IMG/VR virus record: IMGVR_UViG_3300032893_001296 | Coordinates: 1 to 34,705 of that record | Direction: 5' to 3' (one strand) | DNA from: a virus | DNA: 34,705 nt | Made by a program: the position numbers and the translations under genes | Notes under the pieces: generated by a model | Databases searched by the model: none | What the model saw: the letters and a program-made list of their open reading frames with translations, nothing else | What the model was told of the DNA's origin: nothing | Shown here: positions 3,507-34,705 of the stretch, one piece after another | Layout of the letters: each line of letters starts with the position of its first letter | Position numbering within the stretch: position 1 is the first letter of the stretch

Positions 3507-3878
3507 ATGGAAATTGATCTGAGCCAGTTAAGCCAGGGCACGCGAGCGAAGGTCGACGAGATTTTCCGGCGGGACTTCGACCTGAAGGTGCTGAAGGCGG
3601 TGCGGCGGCAGACGCGGGCCGCGGCGGTGAACCACTTGTGCCGGCCGCGGGCGAAGGAGGGGTTCGGGGAGCGGACGTTCGAGATTGACGCGTATATCGA
3701 CGCGCTGTGGCGGAATTTCTACGGGAAGTCATACACGGAGGACAAGGATTTGATGCGGTTCCTGGCGAAGCGCAACCCGGAGATCCGGGTGCGGAGTCTG
3801 GGGACGCGGATCCAGGTGGGATGGGCACCGGGGGAGAAGAGCCGGTGGCGCCGGAAATATGAAAGGGCTGAAGGCTGA
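3507..3878 (+). CDS. Hypothetical structural-region protein (123 aa)
   Basis: A small charged, mainly helical protein beginning MEIDLSQLSQGTRAKVDEIF. It is basic, with many Arg and Lys, and aromatic residues in the middle (YIDALWRNFYGKSY). It has no membrane segment. The ATG at 3507 is preferred over an in-frame GTG at 3468 because the upstream stretch is a strong hairpin with a poor coding look. No clear ribosome binding site is visible. The stop codon TGA (3876-3878) lies inside a GGCTGAA repeat run, so the C-terminal Arg-Ala-Glu-Gly appears to be set by the repeat. I do not recognise the family; position suggests a head completion or neck role. Confidence 0.6.
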   Translation: MEIDLSQLSQGTRAKVDEIFRRDFDLKVLKAVRRQTRAAAVNHLCRPRAKEGFGERTFEIDAYIDALWRNFYGKSYTEDKDLMRFLAKRNPEIRVRSLGTRIQVGWAPGEKSRWRRKYERAEG

Positions 3879-3944
3879 AGGCTGAAGGCTGAAGCACCTA
3901 GCGGTGCGGCCACCAATAAAAGCACAGATGAACACGGATAAACG
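3866..3944 (+). repeat. Composite of three host-type repeats
   Basis: Four exact GGCTGAA units (3866-3893) run into a CACCTAGCGGTGCGGCCACC palindrome (3894-3914), and after a short AATAAAAG link comes CACAGATGAACACGGATAA (from 3923). The first repeat supplies the stop codon of the upstream gene, and the last ends a few bases before the ribosome binding site of the next gene. I link all three motifs from memory to Verrucomicrobiota genomes. Having three side by side in a 79-base phage gap is unusual. Confidence 0.8.
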
Positions 3945-12950: not shown

Positions 12951-13544
12951 ATGAATGATCAAGTGGCAAGTGCGATTCGGACCCTGCTGAAGATGGCCGG
13001 GGCGGCTTTCATCGTGAAACGCGGGTGGCTGGGAAGTGACCAGCTGGACATCGTCATCGGGGCGGTGATGGTGCTGGGAGGGGCGGGGTGGAGTTATTGG
13101 CATCACCAACAGAGCTCGAGCGCGGGACCTGAGACGGATGCGAAGCCGCCGATGAAGGGGACGGGGACGCTGCTGGTTATCGCGGCGGCCGTGGGCCTGG
13201 CGGCGGGGCTGCTGGGGTGCGCGAGCGCGTCGACCAATATCTGGCGGAGCGAGCAGACGGCGGTGAACCTCGTGTCGGGCGCTTACGCCGGCTGGACGAA
13301 TTATTACGTGGTGACCACGAACGCGGCGACGACGTCGGCGCAGCGGAAGGCGCAGCTCGACCAGGCGGAGACGCAACTGAAGGCGGCCCGGATGCACTTT
13401 GCGGCCTCGGTCGGGGTGGTGGAGGCCTGGAGGTCGGCCTATGAGACAAACTCGGCGGTGGAGGGGCAGCTGCAGGCAGCACTGCAGGCGGCGTTGGATG
13501 AGTCGTCGAATATCGTGTGGGTTATTAACTACTGGAGACAGTAA
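12951..13544 (+). CDS. Holin joined in frame to a lipoprotein (197 aa)
   Basis: Residues 1-67 look like a small phage holin of the kind annotated as Pam3-gp28-like: AIRTLLKMAGAAFIVKRGW followed by a hydrophobic segment (LDIVIGAVMVLGGAGWSYW, about 32-50). Without any stop the frame continues into MKGTGTLLVIAAAVGLAAGL (68-87) ending in the lipobox LLGC, then a 100-residue Ala/Gln/Glu-rich helical part, as in an outer-membrane lipoprotein or o-spanin. Usually these are two genes. An internal ATG at 13152 would start the lipoprotein alone, but I see no strong ribosome binding site before it. AAAGGACAAGA precedes the ATG at 12951. The stop TAA is the first part of a host-type repeat. Confidence 0.6.
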   Translation: MNDQVASAIRTLLKMAGAAFIVKRGWLGSDQLDIVIGAVMVLGGAGWSYWHHQQSSSAGPETDAKPPMKGTGTLLVIAAAVGLAAGLLGCASASTNIWRSEQTAVNLVSGAYAGWTNYYVVTTNAATTSAQRKAQLDQAETQLKAARMHFAASVGVVEAWRSAYETNSAVEGQLQAALQAALDESSNIVWVINYWRQ

Positions 13545-13600
13545 CCGCAAAGAACGCAAAGAACACAGAGAAGGCTGAAGGCTGAAGGCTGAGGGCTGAA
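13543..13600 (+). repeat. CCGCAAAGAACGCAAAG repeat followed by four GGCTGAA-type units
   Basis: Starts within the stop codon of the holin-lipoprotein gene (TAACCGCAAAGAACGC), continues as AAAGAACACAGAGAA and then four GGCTGAA-type units at 13573-13600, one ending in G. The next gene starts 17 bases later with a GAAAGGAAAAG binding site. Relatives of the first part are at 20989-21080, 33594-33634 and 33902-33942; of the second part at 3866-3893. Confidence 0.85.
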
Positions 13601-13616
13601 GAAAGGAAAAGAGATT

Positions 13617-13865
13617 ATGACGCAACAGGAATTGCAGGATTTGTTGAACACGATCGTGACCGACCTGAATACCGCGGCGACGTTTGCGGGGGTGATTGAC
13701 CCGGCGCTGGTGCCGTTCATCCAGATTGGGAAGGCGGTGGACAAGGCGATCCCAGGCCTGGCGGCGAGCGTAGCCGGCTGGATTGGCGGCCAGGCGCCGA
13801 CGGATGCCGAGAAGGCGGACTTCGCGGCGAAGCTGGCGGCACTGGGCAACCCGGACGGACTGTGA
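13617..13865 (+). CDS. Hypothetical small protein (82 aa)
   Basis: Begins MTQQELQDLLNTIVTDLNTA, acidic and helical. A moderately hydrophobic centre (PALVPFIQIGKAVDKAIPGLAASVAGWIGG, described in pieces: residues about 29-57) could be a single amphipathic or membrane helix, and an acidic-to-Ala-rich end follows. The strong GAAAGGAAAAGAG binding site supports expression. It lies just after the lysis genes, so a lysis or membrane role is possible, but no motif proves it. It overlaps the next gene by GTGA. Confidence 0.55.
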   Translation: MTQQELQDLLNTIVTDLNTAATFAGVIDPALVPFIQIGKAVDKAIPGLAASVAGWIGGQAPTDAEKADFAAKLAALGNPDGL

Positions 13866-14110
13866 ACCTCGAGGAAACGCAGCGAAAGCTGAGCGAGGTC
13901 GAGGTCGACCGCGAGCGGGCCTGGCAGGAAACGCGCCGGGCCCGACGCGCTTTGCACGAGGCGCAGGAGCTGGCCAAGGCGGCCCAGGAGGCACTGTTCG
14001 AGGTGGACCGGGAGTTGTCGCCGGAACATCGGGAGGAGAGGCTGTGCGGGCGGCTGAGCGTGGCGATGGTGGCGGTGCAGCAGATCACACAGGTGAAAGA
14101 GAAAGATTAA
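13862..14110 (+). CDS. Small coiled-coil protein (82 aa)
   Basis: GTG start overlapping the previous stop (GTGA). The sequence is almost entirely a charged helix: EETQRKLSEVEVDRERAWQE, Arg/Ala-rich RRARRALHEAQELAKAAQEA, then a short C-terminal part with one Cys. It has no membrane segment or signal, so it is not a classical spanin. It lies between the lysis cassette and the tail nozzle. The second GAGCAA array starts immediately after its TAA stop. The function is unknown. Confidence 0.5.
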   Translation: MNLEETQRKLSEVEVDRERAWQETRRARRALHEAQELAKAAQEALFEVDRELSPEHREERLCGRLSVAMVAVQQITQVKEKD

Positions 14111-14200
14111 GAGCAAGAGCAAGAGCAATAAGCAAGAGCCGGGAAAGGGAAAAGCAAGAGCAAGAGCAAGAGCAAGAAGCAAGAAGCAAGAAGCAAGAGG
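14111..14200 (+). repeat. GAGCAA/AAGCAA hexanucleotide array, copy 2
   Basis: Starts right after the TAA of the coiled-coil gene and runs GAGCAA units, a short interruption (CCGGGAAAGGGAAAAGC), more GAGCAA units, then AAGCAAGAAGCAAG variants. It ends in AAGAGG, which serves as ribosome binding site for the next gene (GTG at 14206). It is the same family as 92-232, so both copies lie before structural genes. Confidence 0.9.
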
Positions 14201-18964: not shown

Positions 18965-20176
18965 ATGGGCCTATTAACCGATTGGATTTCGCGGTCGCGC
19001 CAGGCGACTCAAGACAGGACTGCGCTTGAGTCGCTGACTAACTACGGCAATGGCGGGTTCGACCCGACGAGCGGCTACCAGGGCGGCCAGGGCGCGGCCG
19101 GCGGGGACAACGGCGACGGCTCGGACCTGACTTCCTACGCGGTGCAACGGGGGCAGCAGGCGGATGCGCTACGGAAGCTGATCAAGGCGTATTCGCCGGA
19201 CTCGACGGACACGCACACGGCGCTGCAGGCGATGAGTGTGGACCAGCTCGAGGGGCTGCTGCGCGGTTACACAATGAAGAGCGCGTCGGATATGCAGGCG
19301 GCGCGGATGGCGGATTACCAGGCGCAGGCGGCGCAGCGGGCGCAGATGGCGCAGGATGATATGTCGATCGGGGCGGCGGTGAATCGCTACGCGAACGCGC
19401 CGGTGGTGGCGGCCGGCTATGACACGGAGCCGACGCCGGGCAGCACTGGGGGCGCCGGCACGGGCGCGAGCACGATGCGGGAGCCGACGGCGGATGAGCG
19501 GTTCCGGTATGCGCTGGCGACGCCGGGCCTGAGCGGGCGGGCGGTGCCGAAGCTGATTGAATCCCTGACGAGGTACGGTGAGGCGGGGGATGCTCCAATG
19601 GTAATAAAGGATAATCCCTATCCGGGCCTGAGCATTGTGACCTCGAGGACGGGGCGAGGAGGGATCCACGTGGTGGAAGACCCGAATGCCGCGGGGGCGT
19701 CTGACGCGCTGAAGCCTAACTATACGGAGGATCCGGTGACGGGGGCGCGGACGCTGCTGTACGGAAAGCAGGCTATCACGACGGGGTTTAATCCGGCGAA
19801 GTCTGGAGCCAGTCTGACAGCCCAGCATGATGAGGACGGGAACCTGGTGGGCTGGAGCCAAACGAATGCGAAGGGGCAAGCGGTTTGGATCCCAAACAAG
19901 ACGGGGGCAAAGCTGAAGCAGGCGACTGATGATAATGGCCAACCAGTATTGGGCTTTTACGTGGACAACGGCGGGAAGGTGATTGATGCGCGAAGCGCGA
20001 TGCAGAAGACCCTGGGCATAACTCCTGCGGCGCCGGCGAAGGCCTCGGCGGCCGGGGCGGCGAACAAGTACAAGACGACGGGGGATGTGGTGGCGGACTT
20101 TAAGAAGGGCGTTTTGACGCGAGCAGAGGCGGCGGGGATTTTGAACAGCAAATTCGGGGTGCCGATGGGCAAGTAG
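18965..20176 (+). CDS. Internal virion (ejection) protein, medium (403 aa)
   Basis: The first 130 residues are helical and Gln/Ala rich (YAVQRGQQADALRKLIKAYS, AARMADYQAQAAQRAQMAQD). The middle, about 200-330, is lower in GC and beta-like, with GNLVGWSQTNAKGQAVWIPN. The last 30 residues (TGDVVADFKKGVLTRAEAAG) resemble a short SHOCT-like helical pair often found at protein C-termini. There is no transmembrane segment. It stands between the small and large ejection proteins, like T7 gp15. GAGAGG precedes the ATG. The next gene begins one base after the stop, so the two are certainly co-translated. Confidence 0.6.
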   Translation: MGLLTDWISRSRQATQDRTALESLTNYGNGGFDPTSGYQGGQGAAGGDNGDGSDLTSYAVQRGQQADALRKLIKAYSPDSTDTHTALQAMSVDQLEGLLRGYTMKSASDMQAARMADYQAQAAQRAQMAQDDMSIGAAVNRYANAPVVAAGYDTEPTPGSTGGAGTGASTMREPTADERFRYALATPGLSGRAVPKLIESLTRYGEAGDAPMVIKDNPYPGLSIVTSRTGRGGIHVVEDPNAAGASDALKPNYTEDPVTGARTLLYGKQAITTGFNPAKSGASLTAQHDEDGNLVGWSQTNAKGQAVWIPNKTGAKLKQATDDNGQPVLGFYVDNGGKVIDARSAMQKTLGITPAAPAKASAAGAANKYKTTGDVVADFKKGVLTRAEAAGILNSKFGVPMGK

Positions 20177-20177
20177 C

Positions 20178-23100
20178 ATGGCGCAAACGGTCGAGGACCT
20201 GTTGGGCCCGGAGCAGACGGTAGACGACCTGCTAGGGCGGGAGATCCCACTCGGGACGGAGGTGAAGCTGAACCCGTATGACGCGGCGCGCTTGCAAACG
20301 GGCGGCCAACCGATGGGGCCGATGGGGCCGATTGACGCGGATGCGGGCCTGGGCGCGCTGGGCCAGGTGGTGGGGGCGCTGGCGGAGGTGCCGGGGAAGG
20401 TGGCGACGGCGGTGGCGGATATCCCCACGCGGCTGCATAACCTGGGGCTGGACCCGGAGTCGCCGGATTACGTGCCGACACTGGCGGAGCGGAGCAAGGC
20501 TGGACCGATTTTTCAATTTCCACGGATCCGGCTGAGCCCGGAGACGCAGGCGGCGCTGGAGTCGTCGCCAATTCCCCTGGCGAACGCGGTGCCGACGGCG
20601 GCGGGCGCGTTCAACGTGGTGAGCGAAATGGGGGAGTCGATGCTGGGGCGGCCGGAGACGGCGCTGACGCTGCCGTTTATGCTGGGGGAGGGGACGCTGG
20701 CGCGGATGATGCAGGCGGGGTTTGGCGCGGCACAGCTGGCGGCGCTGCCGGAGCAGGTGCAGGAGGCGGTGCGGGTGCTGCAGGACCCGAAGTCGACGCG
20801 GAGCGACCAGGTGGAGGCGCTGGGGCGGCCGGGGGTGTCGGCGGTGGTGGGGGCCGGGATGTTGCGGGCGGCGGCCGAGGCGCTGCCGCGGGCGGGCGCG
20901 GAGGGGCCGGAGCCGGGGAGCTGGAGCTGGGCGCCGGAGGCGGTGCGACGGCTGCAGGAGGGGTGGGAGTGGCTGAAGGGAGAGGGAGTAACCGCAGAGA
21001 ACGCAAAGAACGCAGAGACGGGGGAACGGGAGAAGGCGGGGGAGGGAGTAACCGCAGAGAACGCAGAGAACGCAAAGACTGGGGAAGAGCCGAAGGCGGG
21101 AGTGGGGCGGGCAGTCCAGACGTCTGAACGGCTGCCTAAGCCGACGGTACCCGAAGGGCCGACGGAGGAGGAGCGGCTGATTGCGGAGATTATGGCGCCG
21201 GAGCCGAAGCCGGCGAAGGAGATCCAGACGTGGGATGACGCGGTGCAGGCGCTGCGGGAGCGGGGCCAGGGGAATGAGACGCGCGCGGATATCCAGAATT
21301 TGTTTCCCGAGCTGGGCCTGAAGAGCGAGATCGCCGGGAAGCTGGCGCGGGAGGCGTTCGGGGACCAGTGGCGGCCCGGCGGGGCGGTGCCGCAACCGGG
21401 TCCCAAAGTCGCAGAAGTCACGGAGCAACCGAAAGGAGTAGAACATGCCAAGCAAAACATCGAAGCAGCACAACCTCATGGCGATGTGCTCAACCCCAGC
21501 GGGCCGAGCGAAGGCGCGGGGGCATTGCCCGCCGCTGAAGGTGGCGCTGGAGTTCCGCCACGCGGACAAGGGGAAACACTTCGTCCACCAGCACAAGGGA
21601 CACCGGAAGCGGACGTTCGGGGTGTAACACCTAGCGGTGTGGCCATGGCGCCTGGCGGCGCGGAGGCGGCGGAAGCGGGCGTGGTGCACCGGATGGCGAC
21701 GGGCGGGGCGGCTGCGAGCGGGGCGACGCTGAGGACGGCGCCGCCGGCGGTGACGAGGCCTGCGCCGGTTCGGGTACCGGCGCCGTCGCCAGTGCCACGG
21801 CCGGCGCCTGGGGCGATCGAGGCCTTGAGGTCGCACCTGACGGCCTGGCGCCAGGGGTTTCAGTCGGTCTTTTCGCCGCAGAACATTGACGCGACGGCGA
21901 AGCAGTTCGCGAACGTCTTGCGGCATTATAACGCGCAGGAGGCGGTGGACCTGACGCGCGCGGACGCGCACCTGGGCGAGCTGCGGGGCTACTTCGACAA
22001 GACGCCGGTGCCGAAGGATTGGGCGTATGACCCGGCGCAGCCGCTGCCGCACAACTACGCGGTGATGGATGCGCTGGAGCGGAACCGGTCGGCGCTGGAG
22101 CCGCGGCTGCAGGACTGGGCGCGGGCGATGGACCGGGAGTTTGCCTGGCGGATTGCCGAGGTGCGGCGGCTGAAGCCGGGAGCGATGGAGCAGTTGATTA
22201 CGAATTATTTCCCGCACATGTGGGAGAACCCGGACTCGGGAGCAGTGCGGAGCTGGGCGTCGGAGGTGGCAGCGCGGTCGCCGCTGCACGGGAGCAAGGC
22301 GTTCATGCAGCAGCGGACGCTGCCGCTGACAGTGGACGGCCTGGCGCGGGGCCTCCGGCCAATTTCGGATAACCCGGTAGACCTGGCGCTGGCGAAGCTG
22401 CACCAGATGGATAAGTTCCTGAAGGCGGCCAAAGTGATGGAGGAGGCGAAGGCGAACGGCACGCTGAAGTATTATCCGCTGGGGCGGCGGATCCCGGCGG
22501 GGCGGACGGTGGTGGATGACCCGGCGTTTACGGTTTACGCGCCGCCGGTGTTGTCGGTGCCGGAGGCGTATGACGCGGGGCTCCGCAAGGGGCTGATGGA
22601 TTTCATCGGGAAGATGGGGTTCCGGCATGAGCGGGTGGCGAAGCTGGGGGTGAACCAGTGGGGACAATACACGACGGGGACTGGGGAGATTAAGAGCCGG
22701 TTTGGCGGGCCTGACTTCGTCATCATGCACGAGATTGGGCACGGCCTCGAGGAGCGCTACGGGCTGAGCCGGTTTTTGTTCGCGAACGATACTTTGCGCC
22801 AGGAGATGAGCAACCTGGCCGCGCTGCGGACGCAGGGGATGAGCGCGTCGAAGCGGATGCGGACCTATGTGCAGTCGCCGGACGAGCAGGTGGCGAACGC
22901 GGTGCACGCGTATCTTTACGCGCCGGAGGCGATGGAGCGGGTGGCGCCGAACGCGCAGAAGGTCCTGGCAAATATCATCCGCGCGAACCCAGAGCTGGAG
23001 GACCTGAACGATATCAAGCCGGGGCTGGCGGTGGGGCAGTCGAACACGGAGCTGAAGCTGCCGGGGCCGGTGCTGGCGGGGCGGTGGACGCTGCCGAATG

Positions 23101-24896
23101 GGGCGGCGCAGGTGCTGAGCAATTATCTATCGCCCGGCCTGCAGAAGTGGGCGGCTTTCCGGACGTTGCGGGCGGGGAGCCATATTTTGAACGGGGCGCA
23201 GCTGGGGATGAGCGCGTTTCACGCAGGGTTCACGAGCCTGGACGCGGTGGTGTCGAGCGTGGCGACGGGGCTGGGCTACCTGCTGCAGGGGGATTTGCCG
23301 AAGGCGGCGCGGAGCGCGGTTTTTTCGACGGTGGCACCGGTGGCGAATTATTACCTGGGCAAGGCGGTGCAGGGGAAGATGGTCGACCCGACGATGACGA
23401 GCGTGCCGGTGCTGGATTTTCCGCGGCTGGGGATTAAGGGATTTCAGTTTCAATTTTCGCCGGCACGCGAGGCGGCGCTGCGGCAGATTGCCGACCTGGC
23501 TGTGAAGGGCGGCCTGCGCGCGGAGATGGACCCGTTCTGGAAGACGCGGATCACGCGGAACCTGGTGCGGGCGGTGAACGAGGGAGGACTGGCGAATTAC
23601 GCGAAGGCGGGGCTGGGGCTGCCGTTCGCGGCCGTGGAGCAGGCGATGCGGCCGATCGCCGAATACCTGGTGCCGCGGCAGAAGCTGGGGGTGTTCGCGC
23701 AGCTGGCGCGCCAGGAAATGGACCGGATGGGCCCGGGCGCGAGCCTGGACCAGGTGCGGGCCGGGATGGCGCGGGCGGCGGATGCGACCGAGGACCGCAT
23801 GGGGCAGATGACCTACGACAATCTGTTCTACAACAAGATGGTGAAGGACCTGGCGCTGCTGGGCTTCAGGGCCTACGGCTGGCAGTTGGGCAAGTACCGG
23901 CACCTGCTCGGAGCGGCTGGCGACGCCGGCGCCCTGGTGCGGAACGCGACCGAGAAGCTGGCCGCGGCGGCGGCCGGGCGGCCGTCGACGACGCCACCGC
24001 TGCAGATCACGAACCGGATGCTCTACCCGATCGCCCTGGCCATGGTCGCCGGCGGCGCCGGGGCGCTGACGCAAATGATTCTCGCCGGCAAACGGCCGGA
24101 GACGCTGCAGGACTATATGTTCCCGCAGAACGGGCAGACGGATGCGGACGGTCGGCCGCAGCGGTTGATGCTGCCGACTTACATGAAGGACCTGGCGTCG
24201 GATTGGAAGGACTTCCCGGACCTGCAGAAGATGGGGGCGAGCTTCTACCACAAGCTAAACCCGGGCATCGCGGCCGCGGTGGACATGTACCGCAACCAGG
24301 ACTACTACGGGGTGAATATCCGGAACCCGGATGACCCGGCGACCAAGCAGGCCGGCGAGCTGGCGGCGTTCGTGGCGAAGCAGTTTGTGCCATTCTCGAT
24401 CTCGGGCACGGCGCGGCTGGCGGAGGAGAAGTCGCCGGTCGCGCAGTTGGTGCTGCCATTTTTTGGGATTGTGCCGGCGAAGAAGGCATTGACGATGACG
24501 CCGGCGGAGAACCTGGCTGCGGAGATTGCCCGGGCCGGAATGCCGATCGGCGGGCGAACGACCGAGGCATTCGAGCACGGGCGCCTGGTGCGGCAGCTCG
24601 CCCAGGATATGCGGCGCGACCCGGCGGCCGGCGCGCAGGCGTTCACGGCGAACATCGGCAAGCTGAGGCCGGGTGACGAGAAGACGGTGCAGAGCATGTT
24701 GACGATGACGCCGCTGCAATACCAGGTGCACAAGATGCCGGCGAGCGACGCGATGCGGGTTTGGCGGGTGGCTAATCCGCAGGAGAAGGCGCTGCTGGGC
24801 GAGCAGCTGCAGATGAAGGTGGCGAACGCGCGGAGCCTGGACCCCGAGCGGCAGTCGGCCTACATGCTGGAGCTGGCTAAGGGGGTTCGGAAGTAG
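20178..24896 (+). CDS. Large ejection/polyvalent virion protein with zinc-peptidase motif (1572 aa)
   Basis: The largest gene here, at the end of the late region, like T7 gp16. The N-terminus repeats the phrase TVEDLLGPEQTVDDLLGREI. Residues about 140-250 are helical. A low-complexity linker (about 260-560) holds in-frame host-type repeats and the nested gene at 21445. Residues 851-855 are HEIGH, with E903 in DEQVANAVHAYL as a possible third zinc ligand, so a metallopeptidase domain that could cut peptide cross-links or process virion proteins at entry. A hydrophobic segment at about 1281-1303 (MLYPIALAMVAGGAGALTQM) could cross a membrane. The C-terminal 270 residues are helical. No lytic transglycosylase motif was seen. 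The start is the ATG one base after the previous stop. Confidence 0.65.
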   Translation: MAQTVEDLLGPEQTVDDLLGREIPLGTEVKLNPYDAARLQTGGQPMGPMGPIDADAGLGALGQVVGALAEVPGKVATAVADIPTRLHNLGLDPESPDYVPTLAERSKAGPIFQFPRIRLSPETQAALESSPIPLANAVPTAAGAFNVVSEMGESMLGRPETALTLPFMLGEGTLARMMQAGFGAAQLAALPEQVQEAVRVLQDPKSTRSDQVEALGRPGVSAVVGAGMLRAAAEALPRAGAEGPEPGSWSWAPEAVRRLQEGWEWLKGEGVTAENAKNAETGEREKAGEGVTAENAENAKTGEEPKAGVGRAVQTSERLPKPTVPEGPTEEERLIAEIMAPEPKPAKEIQTWDDAVQALRERGQGNETRADIQNLFPELGLKSEIAGKLAREAFGDQWRPGGAVPQPGPKVAEVTEQPKGVEHAKQNIEAAQPHGDVLNPSGPSEGAGALPAAEGGAGVPPRGQGETLRPPAQGTPEADVRGVTPSGVAMAPGGAEAAEAGVVHRMATGGAAASGATLRTAPPAVTRPAPVRVPAPSPVPRPAPGAIEALRSHLTAWRQGFQSVFSPQNIDATAKQFANVLRHYNAQEAVDLTRADAHLGELRGYFDKTPVPKDWAYDPAQPLPHNYAVMDALERNRSALEPRLQDWARAMDREFAWRIAEVRRLKPGAMEQLITNYFPHMWENPDSGAVRSWASEVAARSPLHGSKAFMQQRTLPLTVDGLARGLRPISDNPVDLALAKLHQMDKFLKAAKVMEEAKANGTLKYYPLGRRIPAGRTVVDDPAFTVYAPPVLSVPEAYDAGLRKGLMDFIGKMGFRHERVAKLGVNQWGQYTTGTGEIKSRFGGPDFVIMHEIGHGLEERYGLSRFLFANDTLRQEMSNLAALRTQGMSASKRMRTYVQSPDEQVANAVHAYLYAPEAMERVAPNAQKVLANIIRANPELEDLNDIKPGLAVGQSNTELKLPGPVLAGRWTLPNGAAQVLSNYLSPGLQKWAAFRTLRAGSHILNGAQLGMSAFHAGFTSLDAVVSSVATGLGYLLQGDLPKAARSAVFSTVAPVANYYLGKAVQGKMVDPTMTSVPVLDFPRLGIKGFQFQFSPAREAALRQIADLAVKGGLRAEMDPFWKTRITRNLVRAVNEGGLANYAKAGLGLPFAAVEQAMRPIAEYLVPRQKLGVFAQLARQEMDRMGPGASLDQVRAGMARAADATEDRMGQMTYDNLFYNKMVKDLALLGFRAYGWQLGKYRHLLGAAGDAGALVRNATEKLAAAAAGRPSTTPPLQITNRMLYPIALAMVAGGAGALTQMILAGKRPETLQDYMFPQNGQTDADGRPQRLMLPTYMKDLASDWKDFPDLQKMGASFYHKLNPGIAAAVDMYRNQDYYGVNIRNPDDPATKQAGELAAFVAKQFVPFSISGTARLAEEKSPVAQLVLPFFGIVPAKKALTMTPAENLAAEIARAGMPIGGRTTEAFEHGRLVRQLAQDMRRDPAAGAQAFTANIGKLRPGDEKTVQSMLTMTPLQYQVHKMPASDAMRVWRVANPQEKALLGEQLQMKVANARSLDPERQSAYMLELAKGVRK
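20989..21080 (+). repeat. Two in-frame copies of the CCGCAGAGAACGCAAAG repeat inside a gene
   Basis: AACCGCAGAGAACGCAAAGA and AACCGCAGAGAACGCAGAGA begin at about 20990 and 21050, about 60 bases apart, so the reading frame is kept. They are translated as TAENAKNAET and TAENAENAKT within the linker of the large ejection protein. The family otherwise lies at gene ends (13543, 33594, 33902). Confidence 0.85.
21111..21132 (+). repeat. AGACGTCT palindromic element inside the ejection gene
   Basis: CAGTCCAGACGTCTGAAC with flanking GC; a 22-base stretch identical to 29978-29999. Translated here as VQTSE. Further copies in the opposite orientation: 16410-16425 (tail nozzle gene) and 26541-26560 (start of integrase gene, one difference in the core, again translated VQTSE). 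Confidence 0.8.
21445..21627 (+). CDS. Nested small basic phage protein within the ejection gene (60 aa)
   Basis: A complete 60-codon gene lies in the +1 frame relative to the large gene around it. AAAGGAG at 21432-21438 stands six bases before the ATG. The protein is Lys/His/Arg rich and begins MPSKTSKQHNLMAM, later EFRHADKGKHF. I recall small phage proteins with the plan MPSKSKKQHN-L/F-MA ... P ... V-x-x-EF-x-x-ADKGK/R; this fits it from end to end, which would be very unlikely by chance in a shadow frame. The large gene's own frame over the same bases is Pro/Gly/Ala low-complexity linker. The TAA stop overlaps a CACCTAGCGGTGTGG element of the type that follows stops elsewhere. Function unknown. 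Confidence 0.7.
   Translation: MPSKTSKQHNLMAMCSTPAGRAKARGHCPPLKVALEFRHADKGKHFVHQHKGHRKRTFGV
21627..21664 (+). repeat. Two adjacent CACCTRGCGGTG-type palindromes
   Basis: ACACCTAGCGGTGTGGCCA begins at the last base of the nested gene's TAA stop; GCGCCTGGCGGCGCGG follows at 21647 as a GC-shifted copy. Both keep the palindrome by paired changes (CACC/GGTG to CGCC/GGCG). They are translated by the large gene as TPSGVAM and APGGAEA. Confidence 0.75.

Positions 24897-29271: not shown

Positions 29272-29290
<19 letters not shown>
29030..29290 (+). CDS. DUF6948-like phage protein (86 aa)
   Basis: MDSKLQTMGRQIVVLDRGWV followed by VGDVSKTDEVVTI, NAKNVRRWGT and KGLGELATEGP matches a small phage protein family I recall with the constant phrase DRGWV-x-VGDV ... 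RRWGT-x-x-GLGEL-x-x-GP ... VLD-x-x-GTV; I believe it is DUF6948. Its function is unknown. AAAGGAAAG gives a good binding site. It overlaps the Gly-Tyr-Gly-Asp repeat gene by 19 bases. Confidence 0.65.
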
Positions 29291-29631
<341 letters not shown>

Positions 29632-32555: not shown

Positions 32556-33632
32556 ATGGACTGGCAGGACGTGGAAAAGAAACTGGTGGAGCGGGCGGAG
32601 GAAGTATGCCGTCACCTGCTGCCCAACGGGCGGCGCGAGGGGGCGGAGTGGGTGTGCGGCGATGTGGACGGGCACAAAGGGCGGTCGCTGAAGGTGAACC
32701 TGGAGGGGAAGGCGGGGGTGTGGGCGGATTTCGCGGGGGACGGCCGGGGCAAGACGCTGATGAGCTTGTGGTGTTCGGTGCGGAGCCGGCCGTTCCGGGA
32801 GTGCATCGTGGAGGCGAAGCGGTTTGTGGGGATCGTGGACGAGGGGCGGCGGCTGCGGTCGCCGAGCGCGGTGAATGGGGCGCCGGCGGAGAAGCCGGAG
32901 GACTCGAGCTGGCGGGCGGTGTCGGAGGTGTGGGGGCGGTGCCAGGAGCTGACGGAGGGCGGCCCGGTGTGGAATTACCTGACGGGGCGGCGGAAGATCG
33001 AGGGGCAGGTGCTGCGATGGTATGGAGTGCGGGAGATGATTTCGCACGGGGCCTGGGCGATGGTTTTTCCCTACTGGCCGACGAGCGTGCTGAGCGCGAG
33101 CGGGGAGCAGGACCTGGCGCGGGAGGTGGCCGGCCTGGGGCGAGTGCCACTGTGGCTGAAGTTCGAGCTGCTGGACCGGCCGGGAGGCAAGAAGCGGGAA
33201 TGGACGACGCGGTCGCCGGAGAAGTGCCTGTGGGCGCCGAGCGTGGAGGTGTGCGAGCGGCTGGAGCGGTCGCACGAGCTGCGGCACGTGCTGATTTGCG
33301 AAGGGGAAAAGGACGCGATGAGCTGGGCGAGCTATGGGGCGCTGGGATGGGGCCTGCTGCCGGTGAGCGTGCCGTTCGGGGCGAAGTGGCGGGCGGGTAC
33401 CGGGGAAAAATTCCAGGGGCTGCCGAGCCCGAACCGGGAGTGGCTGGACCGGTGCTGGGAATGGCTGCAGGGGTTCGAGACGATTTTCGTGGCGATGGAC
33501 AGCGACGAGGCCGGCCGGCGCGCGGCGGCGGATATCATCGCGGAGGTGGGGCCGAGGCGGTGCCGGCTGGTGGAGCTGCCGGAGAGGATGATAACCGCAA
33601 AGAACGCAGAGAACACAAAGGAGGGACGATGA
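32556..33632 (+). CDS. DNA primase with TOPRIM domain (358 aa)
   Basis: Makes RNA primers for lagging-strand synthesis. The N-terminal part (about 14-80) has the degenerate zinc-ribbon look of phage primases: CRHLLPNGRREGAEWVCG, then GRSLKVNLEGKAGVWADFAG, but lacks full C-x2-C pairs. The TOPRIM domain is clear: E249-G250-E251 in LICEGEKDA, and D315-S-D317 in FVAMDSDEAGRRAA, which bind the metal ions. A DnaB-type helicase gene follows after one small gene, as two parts of what is one protein in T7 gp4. The last 12 residues (TAKNAENTKEGR) are coded by a host-type repeat and are absent from the family as I know it. No binding site is seen before the ATG. Confidence 0.85.
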   Translation: MDWQDVEKKLVERAEEVCRHLLPNGRREGAEWVCGDVDGHKGRSLKVNLEGKAGVWADFAGDGRGKTLMSLWCSVRSRPFRECIVEAKRFVGIVDEGRRLRSPSAVNGAPAEKPEDSSWRAVSEVWGRCQELTEGGPVWNYLTGRRKIEGQVLRWYGVREMISHGAWAMVFPYWPTSVLSASGEQDLAREVAGLGRVPLWLKFELLDRPGGKKREWTTRSPEKCLWAPSVEVCERLERSHELRHVLICEGEKDAMSWASYGALGWGLLPVSVPFGAKWRAGTGEKFQGLPSPNREWLDRCWEWLQGFETIFVAMDSDEAGRRAAADIIAEVGPRRCRLVELPERMITAKNAENTKEGR

Positions 33633-33634
33633 GC
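33594..33634 (+). repeat. Repeat carrying C-terminus, binding site and next start, copy 1
   Basis: ACCGCAAAGAACGCAGAGAA continues to AAAGGAGGGACGATGAGC. It codes the last residues of the primase, contains AAAGGAGG as ribosome binding site, and includes the ATGA stop-start overlap. 35 bases are identical to 33902-33936, and the six after them differ only in the start codon (ATG against GTG). Confidence 0.95.
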
Positions 33635-33940
33635 CTGTTGATCAAGGACGGACCAGGGAAGCTGCCGGTGGCAGTGATGCGGCATTACTTCGAACTGGTG
33701 GTGAAGAACACGAGCACAGTGCAGAAGTATGCGCCACTGGTCGCAGAGCTGGACGGGGACGGGAATTTCAAGCGCTACCAGGATGCGACGGCGGACGCGA
33801 TTTGGATCGGGTTCGCGCTGGGGCTGCGAATGTGGGAGCGATATTTGATGGCCGGGCAGATCGTGGGAGATGACGCTGGTGGGCCACCGGAAGAGGGGAC
33901 GACCGCAAAGAACGCAGAGAACACAAAGGAGGGACGGTGA
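33629..33940 (+). CDS. Hypothetical protein between primase and helicase (103 aa)
   Basis: MSLLIKDGPGKLPVAVMRHY starts with the ATG inside the repeat. The body has a helix (YFELVVKNTSTVQKYAPLVA), a short strand-like part DGDGNFKRYQ, and a second helix (IWIGFALGLRMWERYLMAGQ). It ends in TTAKNAENTKEGR, again coded by the repeat, so it carries the same C-terminal tail as the primase. It may be a helicase loader or primase partner; no motif is visible. Confidence 0.6.
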   Translation: MSLLIKDGPGKLPVAVMRHYFELVVKNTSTVQKYAPLVAELDGDGNFKRYQDATADAIWIGFALGLRMWERYLMAGQIVGDDAGGPPEEGTTAKNAENTKEGR

Positions 33941-33942
33941 GC
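33902..33942 (+). repeat. Repeat carrying C-terminus, binding site and next start, copy 2
   Basis: Second copy, 308 bases after the first. It codes the tail TAKNAENTKEGR, supplies AAAGGAGG and ends in GTGA, where GTG is the start of the helicase gene and TGA the stop of the gene before. Confidence 0.95.
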
Positions 33943-34705
33943 GTCGCGCGGTACAAGGATGTGAACGAGTGCCTGGTGGAGGGGGTGGGGCTGCACGTGG
34001 TGAAGGGGTGCATCGACGGGGCAAGGGATTTTGCGCCGTCGAAGGTGAGGCGGGCGGGAGAGTACGAGGCGGAGTTCCTGGCGGAGTGGTTCGAGAAGGT
34101 GCTCGAGCCGGGACTCGAGCTGCCGTTCAACTTCCCGTGGCGGATCCGGCCGGCGGAGACAACGGTGTGGACCGGGATCGAGAAGTCGGGCAAGACGACG
34201 CTGCTGGGTTACGTGCTGATGGCGCTGCTGGCCCAGGGCGAGCGGGCGATGGTAGCGAGCTTCGAGTCGCGGGTGCGAAAGACGTTGATGAAGTATTCGC
34301 GCCAGGCCTATGGCGGCCTGCTCAATGACCGGCGGTTCTCCGAGCGGCTGGCGAGCCCGGAGGACCGGGAGTCGTACCGGCAGACGCAGATTGGGCACGC
34401 GAAGGAGGTGCTGCGGTGGCTGGACCGGGGGCTGTGGGTTTACGACCACACGGGGATCGCGCAGTGGCGCGAGGTGCTGGATGATATGCGCTGGGCGCGC
34501 CGGCGGCACGGGATCACGCAGTTCGTGTTGGATAATTTCATGCGGCTGGGAATCGTGAAGGACGATTACGTGCAGCAGGCGGAGTGCATGGCGGCGATCG
34601 CGAACCTGGCGCTGGAGCTGGACGTGCACGTGCACGTGGTGGTGCACCAGAACAAGCAGGAAGGGGTCAAGGGCGGGATGGGGAAACGGAGTGTGGCCGG
34701 CGCGT
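33937..34705 (+). CDS. Replicative DNA helicase, DnaB/RecA-like (partial, at least 256 aa)
   Basis: Unwinds DNA at the fork. The gene opens with GTG inside the repeat (MSVARYKDVNECLVEG) and runs off the window. Walker A is G80-x4-GKT in TGIEKSGKTTLL. The Walker B-like site is FVLDN with D199 at its end, and H237 in HVVVHQNKQEG fits the sensor strand of DnaB-family helicases. The N-terminal 60 residues are short, so the usual DnaB N-terminal helical domain seems to be missing, as in several phage helicases. Primase and helicase being separate but adjacent fits a split T7 gp4-like system. The C-terminus, which would hold the arginine finger and motif H4, is outside. Confidence 0.85.
   Translation, partial: MSVARYKDVNECLVEGVGLHVVKGCIDGARDFAPSKVRRAGEYEAEFLAEWFEKVLEPGLELPFNFPWRIRPAETTVWTGIEKSGKTTLLGYVLMALLAQGERAMVASFESRVRKTLMKYSRQAYGGLLNDRRFSERLASPEDRESYRQTQIGHAKEVLRWLDRGLWVYDHTGIAQWREVLDDMRWARRRHGITQFVLDNFMRLGIVKDDYVQQAECMAAIANLALELDVHVHVVVHQNKQEGVKGGMGKRSVAGA

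Follow-up and report, generated by a model that had tools for sequence, protein, structure and literature searches.

In T4-like phages, an inserted ORF for a homing endonuclease, or an intercistronic sequence, can divide a gene, and the split enzymes of Aeh1 (nrdA/mobE) and phage 25 have been reported to be active (PMC2988022). A second kind of system, the Start Associated Sequences (SAS) of Cluster K mycobacteriophages and Cluster EF Microbacterium phages (PMC3203893, PMC7302621), consists of 13 bp repeats with a Shine–Dalgarno (SD) core, described within phage clusters, while the Rickettsia palindromic elements are dispersed in-frame coding repeats (PMC10969869).

The locus described here resembles each of these in part. 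As in the split genes of the T4-like phages, a conserved replication or nucleotide gene that is contiguous in relatives is divided here by an insert; in contrast to the cases given in that account, the inserted ORF resembles no endonuclease and its borders are formed by a dispersed repeat giving tail, SD and start. The SAS are asymmetric, lie directly 5′ of starts at the position of the ribosome-binding site at several sites of one genome, and in some cases also hold the upstream stop; the repeat may resemble them in this, two of its five window copies lying directly before starts. Compared with the SAS as presented in those reports, it is longer, common to many bacterial phyla and mostly without an SD, and it codes a protein tail; an SD core (AGGAG) within the copies is not a feature of its family. 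With the Rickettsia elements it shares being a dispersed repeat that adds, in frame, a conserved peptide to unrelated proteins, and translation in a preferred frame was also found here, i.e. among 20 translated copies, 16 are read in the TA[KE]N frame, four in another frame and none in the frame with TAA. Those elements are, in the account cited, around 150 bp long, palindromic and located inside genes, whereas the present repeat is short, purine-rich and direct, and forms the end of one gene and the start of another. Judged by these features, the case joins properties of split genes, SAS and Rickettsia coding repeats and is a member of none of them. A literature search found no paper with the strings of the repeat core and recognised no such repeat or split.

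The window (i.e. the whole stretch of DNA analysed, an entire, linear IMG/VR record of 34,705 nt), which belongs to a phage of Verrucomicrobiota-type bacteria, contains a 41-base repeat, ACCGCAAAGAACGCAGAGAACACAAAGGAGGGACG[A/G]TGAGC, on the plus strand at 33594–33634 and 33902–33942, 308 nt apart from start to start. The copies differ by a single mismatch at 33629/33937 (ATG versus GTG) and share an identical run of 35 nt, and 100 shuffles of the window gave no match at up to three mismatches. Each copy codes the last 12 residues of the gene upstream, TAKNAENTKEGR in both cases, carries AAAGGAGG (33617–33624 and 33925–33932, plus strand, 4 nt 5′ of the ATG and the GTG, respectively) and ends in a stop/start overlap from which the next gene begins, i.e. 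ATGA at 33629–33632 in copy 1 and GTGA at 33937–33940 in copy 2. The initial annotation had claimed exactly these points, namely the two copies with their spacing and one difference, the common tail, the SD and the overlapping starts, and all of them were confirmed. Four-base overlaps are usual in this phage (seven adjacent gene pairs), and a perfect AGGAGG was found upstream of 3 of the 30 window genes examined, two of which are the genes at the repeat junctions. Predicted folding of the 121 nt surrounding each junction leaves the starts mostly and the SDs partly unpaired.

Three cistrons, occupying three different frames, meet at these junctions. The first (32556–33632, plus strand) encodes the primase half of 358 aa, a TOPRIM protein (Pfam Toprim_2, 1.3e-4; phrog_239 primase/helicase, 7e-25) with 51.7 % identity to residues 1–332 of P0005, its nearest fused relative. 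The last (33937–34705, plus strand) encodes the RecA/DnaB-like helicase half (phrog_239, 1.5e-36; 53.2 % to P0005 residues 333–586), of which 256 aa are present up to the truncation by the contig end, beginning with VSVAR followed by YKDVNECL. Between them lies a small ORF of 103 aa (P0002; 33629–33940, plus strand) with the repeat-coded 12-residue tail. While phrog_239 describes a TOPRIM and a RecA-like helicase in one polypeptide, and the window halves match its consecutive parts (positions 194–287 for the primase and 288–523 for the helicase), the window has them as two cistrons with a third in between.

The primase and helicase form one gene in all seven aligned relatives (642–708 aa), i.e. 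two environmental phages at 49–54 % identity, L366 and L367, which were found by a scan with the window primase, and five Verrucomicrobiota genomes at around 30 %. A single primase-helicase frame runs from the homologous ATG in both L367 (704 aa) and L366 (708 aa), and on the L367 contig (G423) the primase and helicase matches abut at 19546/19547. A profile built from these two sequences gave matches in 5 of 387 sampled Verrucomicrobiota genomes, each being one open frame of 642–678 aa. By tblastn against a collection of 50,697 phage records, the fused P0005 matched 289; in 76 records, a single locus accounts for 80 % or more of its length, and these are candidates for a single frame. At the DNA level, the phage collection held no near relatives of 32556–34705, and with the helicase half as a single query against viral_contigs, ten stretches fitted a pattern, none of which was confirmed.

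Comparison with P0005 locates the difference precisely. The window reads ..RRCRLVELP ERMITAKNAENTKEGR* [103-aa ORF] VSVAR YKDVNECL.., and the nearest relative reads ..RRCRLVTLP APC KDANECL.. at the same place. The whole inserted stretch (33582–33954, plus strand; 373 nt) separates the ..VELP codons from those of KDVNE, where P0005 has 9 nt, so that the window shows a net gain of 364 nt composed of repeat, 103-aa orphan ORF and repeat. No residues are missing: the primase (P0001) corresponds to P0005 residues 1–332 and the helicase (P0003) to residues 333–586. The insert is situated in the short variable linker between TOPRIM and helicase, just 5′ of the KDxNE motif. In the maximum-likelihood tree, the window groups with P0005 (97/98) within a three-row clade (100/100) and P0004 just outside, all relatives being fused; since the split form is nested within fused forms, the split is derived. 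A chimera of two phages is disfavoured because both halves are about equally near P0005.

Assemblers err at copies of one repeat, and the contig is metagenomic, so the two copies could have led the assembler to insert an unrelated piece; yet the exact shared stretch is merely 35 nt, the reading frames continue on either side with nothing lost and the halves match the same relative equally, which makes such an artefact extremely improbable. The split form was seen in one genome alone, i.e. the window contig, and an intermediate with one repeat and without the small ORF was not found among the relatives searched. Neither were relatives with the same junctions made of unrelated sequence, a case named beforehand as speaking against the junction cassette; the relatives lack a junction at this place altogether, their primase and helicase being one gene. 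That the repeats probably split an ancestral gene is a point absent from the initial annotation.

By alignment, the conserved motifs EGEKDA, DSDEAG, KDVNE, GIEKSGKTT and LDNFMR are intact on both sides of the split. In the split form, the KDxNE motif, which is conserved at the end of TOPRIM, has come to lie on the helicase polypeptide, and primase activity may be impaired because of its separation from the TOPRIM core. This severed motif and the orphan nature of the inserted ORF would also be expected if the primase-helicase had been broken recently and the phage or provirus were decaying, but open frames, motifs, SD and starts are kept in both halves, the other window genes are dense and co-directional, and the codon use of the small ORF is phage-like. 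Mere damage is very unlikely on these grounds.

For the small ORF itself, the codon log-odds are 0.53 in its frame and negative in the other five, i.e. it is coding-like in that frame only, and it has no credible homologue. Searches of Pfam (threshold E 0.001) and PHROG (0.1) assigned it to no family, phages yielded no homologue at E values of up to 1 and G422/G423 none even at 10, and its AlphaFold model was unusable (pLDDT 49). Matches in 2 of the 387 Verrucomicrobiota genomes (around 5e-4 to 1e-3) lie inside frames of 1628–1962 aa and were judged to be due to chance, and a candidate homologue in L394 turned out to be an off-frame match within a 605-aa ORF.

We consider it highly probable from this comparison that an ancestral primase-helicase gene was divided by a repeat-bordered module carrying the 103-aa ORF, the repeat copies supplying tail, stop, SD and start. 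The ancestor of the window phage would have had a single primase-helicase gene, as its relatives do, and the module, i.e. the ORF between two repeat-based junctions, would have come to occupy the short linker that joins ..RRCRLVELP, where the TOPRIM core ends, to the KDxNECL motif. Each 41-base copy extends the upstream frame by the 12-residue tail, ends it at TGA and provides a strong SD and an overlapping next start, which would have turned one polypeptide into three cistrons, most likely through termination-reinitiation together with SD-assisted initiation. After ending the primase at the TGA within ATGA, ribosomes would begin on the small ORF from the ATG that overlaps it, aided by the SD 4 nt upstream, and the same step at GTGA would start the helicase. 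Primase and helicase would then act as separate subunits, and the split enzyme may have retained activity. The duplication of the junction is most simply dated to the arrival or bracketing of the small ORF. Restoration of the fusion by frameshifting or readthrough was considered and rejected, the three cistrons being in three frames; if the copies recombined, the ORF would be lost but a single functional junction would stay behind, so that no fused gene would result.

The initial annotation had the binding site as part of the repeat as such, and this was not supported. Among 101 viral copies (21 virus records with the repeat, minus the duplicates G011, G015, G017, G018 and G020, giving 16 plus the window), GGAGGGACG follows the repeat in two, both in the window; an SD plus start lies behind 10 of the 101, compared with 4.4 % of random positions, and repeat, SD and start together occurred in none of 15 bacterial genomes. 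The strong SD is local to the two copies of the window phage and does not characterise the repeat family. Both junctions go back to a common origin, one probably having been copied from the other, because the bases between core and start are common to both window copies and occur in no other copy. A search of viral_contigs for the SD-bearing repeat gave none with a repeat upstream among the best 40 of at least 119 stretches, the best agreeing at 9 of 16 positions. The sole stretch found there, besides the window, with this repeat type and AAAGGAGG is L220, which holds a sibling repeat (GCAAAGGCGCAAAGAACGCAAAGGAGG) on the minus strand at around 1050–1080 with an ATG shortly behind.

The window contains three further copies of the repeat core, at 13544, 20991 and 21051. 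The first is intergenic (13544–13573, plus strand), its first A completing the TAA stop of the gene at 12951–13544, and the next start is at 13617. The other two are in tandem with a 60-nt unit (20991–21080, plus strand) and are read in frame as TAENAKNAE and TAENAENAK in the N-terminal part of a 1572-aa gene (20178–24896), outside the stretch of that gene conserved in the relative G423. The description of the repeat as non-coding elsewhere therefore stands for the copy at 13544 and fails for those at 20991 and 21051, which are translated. Of the five window copies, two lie directly before starts and another 43 nt before one, and AGGAGG is present in just two. All are direct repeats, absent from the 25 inverted pairs shown of the 27 in the window.

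Other repetitive sequence was noticed in the same DNA. The heptamer GGCTGAA/GAAGGCT is repeated at 3866–3894 and at 13570–13601, the latter immediately following one of the junction repeat copies, and two AAGAGC-type hexamer arrays lie on the plus strand (90–232 and 14097–14199), a similar in-frame stretch (EHDQDQGARARREA) being found within the helicase of L366. At 29272–29631, a 50-copy array of a CGGCTA-like hexamer gives a 119-aa ORF of almost entirely GYG/GDG repeats.

Beyond the window, the repeat core ACCGCARAGAACGCARAGAACRCARAG was found in 31 stretches of viral_contigs and in at least 112 bacterial stretches, from Verrucomicrobia, cyanobacteria, Planctomycetes and others. A repeat of this kind is widespread across several bacterial phyla, in support of the initial annotation, and its origin from a host is plausible. 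Viral copies favour gene gaps: of the 101, 45 lie within 25 nt after a called stop (random positions, 2.9 %), 22 within 40 nt before a called start (3.6 %) and 11 at both (0.4 %), and only nine are gene-internal (52 %). Eight code a C-terminal tail, not clearly above the random 5.2 %, and four an N-terminus (3.6 %). Independently of the gene caller, 49 of the 101 come after the stop of an open frame 50 codons or longer (9.4 %), 33 precede an ATG (21.7 %) and 22 do both (2.1 %); the enrichment for ATG alone is modest, and for any of ATG, GTG or TTG it is absent (50 of 101 compared with 53 % at random). Much of this preference is that of any insert avoiding coding sequence.

On bacterial chromosomes, 88 copies were scored after 29 of 117 near locus ends had been left out. 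These are not start-associated, an ATG of an 80-codon frame lying within 40 nt in 11 of the 88 versus 12.1 % expected at random, and 25 of the 88 have an inverted partner within 150 nt. Repeat plus ATG was found at up to two mismatches in 12 of the 387 Verrucomicrobiota genomes; since just 3 of the 24 places listed end in ATG, start association is not general in hosts. Such figures would also suit a different order of events, in which the split arose first or otherwise and the repeat settled later in the new junctions, as in gaps generally, supplying nothing needed: both the gap preference of the viral copies and the indifference of the bacterial ones to starts point that way. In the window, however, there is no gap, the repeat itself being the last codons, SD and start, and the copies are alike beyond the core. 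We regard late settling as unlikely, and return to division of the gene by the module as the preferred reading.

The repeat was also found at gene junctions of other phages, as the initial annotation had proposed to look for, including one with the same anatomy of tail and ATGA in a related phage. This phage, G001, opens with an ORF for the C-terminal portion of the same helicase (53 % to P0005), and its ParB gene (L301 1039–2631; Pfam ParB_N and HTH_ParB) lies between two direct repeat copies. The downstream copy codes the last 13 residues of ParB (AAKNTKSAKGAKK*), carries AAAGGGGG and overlaps by ATGA with a 68-aa ORF. A sibling repeat (..GAACGCAAAGGCGCAAAGGCGCAGAG..) likewise provides the ParB tail in L366. 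The G423 contig has two copies on the coding strand, one just 5′ of an ATG and the other reading VNLTAENAKNA.. at the front of a frame that, by eye, is lipoprotein-like. A helicase on G002, a contig without linkage to these, takes its ending, ..NLTAENA*, from a copy, and the following ATG comes 2 nt after the repeat. A phrog_239-like helicase match was present in 3 of the 17 repeat-bearing virus records; the helicases examined in such records are of other kinds and not split copies of the primase-helicase gene.

The junction pattern is stronger than that of the window in G010 (L310/L311), with 24 merged copies in 25 kb on both strands, many of which take up the interval between a TAA stop and the ATG that follows (..TTTAACCGCAGAGAACGCAGAGAACACAAAGATG..). 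Copies follow the main coding strand by 27 to 2 in contigs with one coding strand and by 76 to 25 over all 17 contigs. Many copies in G010 and G008 span the TAA-to-ATG gap in sense orientation without a strong SD, and this, like the 27 to 2 bias, would agree with the repeat being a putative site at which some factor of host or phage binds, its place at starts then being regulatory rather than a supply of SDs. The window copies are translated, though, and purine-rich coding strands explain the sense orientation as well, so that this role appears unlikely.

Returning to a module that divided the gene, it is tempting to speculate, albeit tentatively, that a dispersed bacterial repeat may serve as a portable cistron boundary in phages of Verrucomicrobiota. 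Landing within or behind a gene in the TA[KE]N frame, it could give the upstream protein a short charged tail, an end and a restart, and the repeat may repeatedly have set gene ends in one replication module, i.e. at the window junctions and at ParB of G001, letting genes split or extra ORFs slot in without loss. Division of the window gene by such a module would represent a clean case of repeat DNA dividing a gene within 41 bases, without a visible transposase, intron or endonuclease, and would offer a concrete route for gene fission and the capture of small ORFs in phage operons. It would also mean that the same tail on adjacent proteins need not imply a common function.
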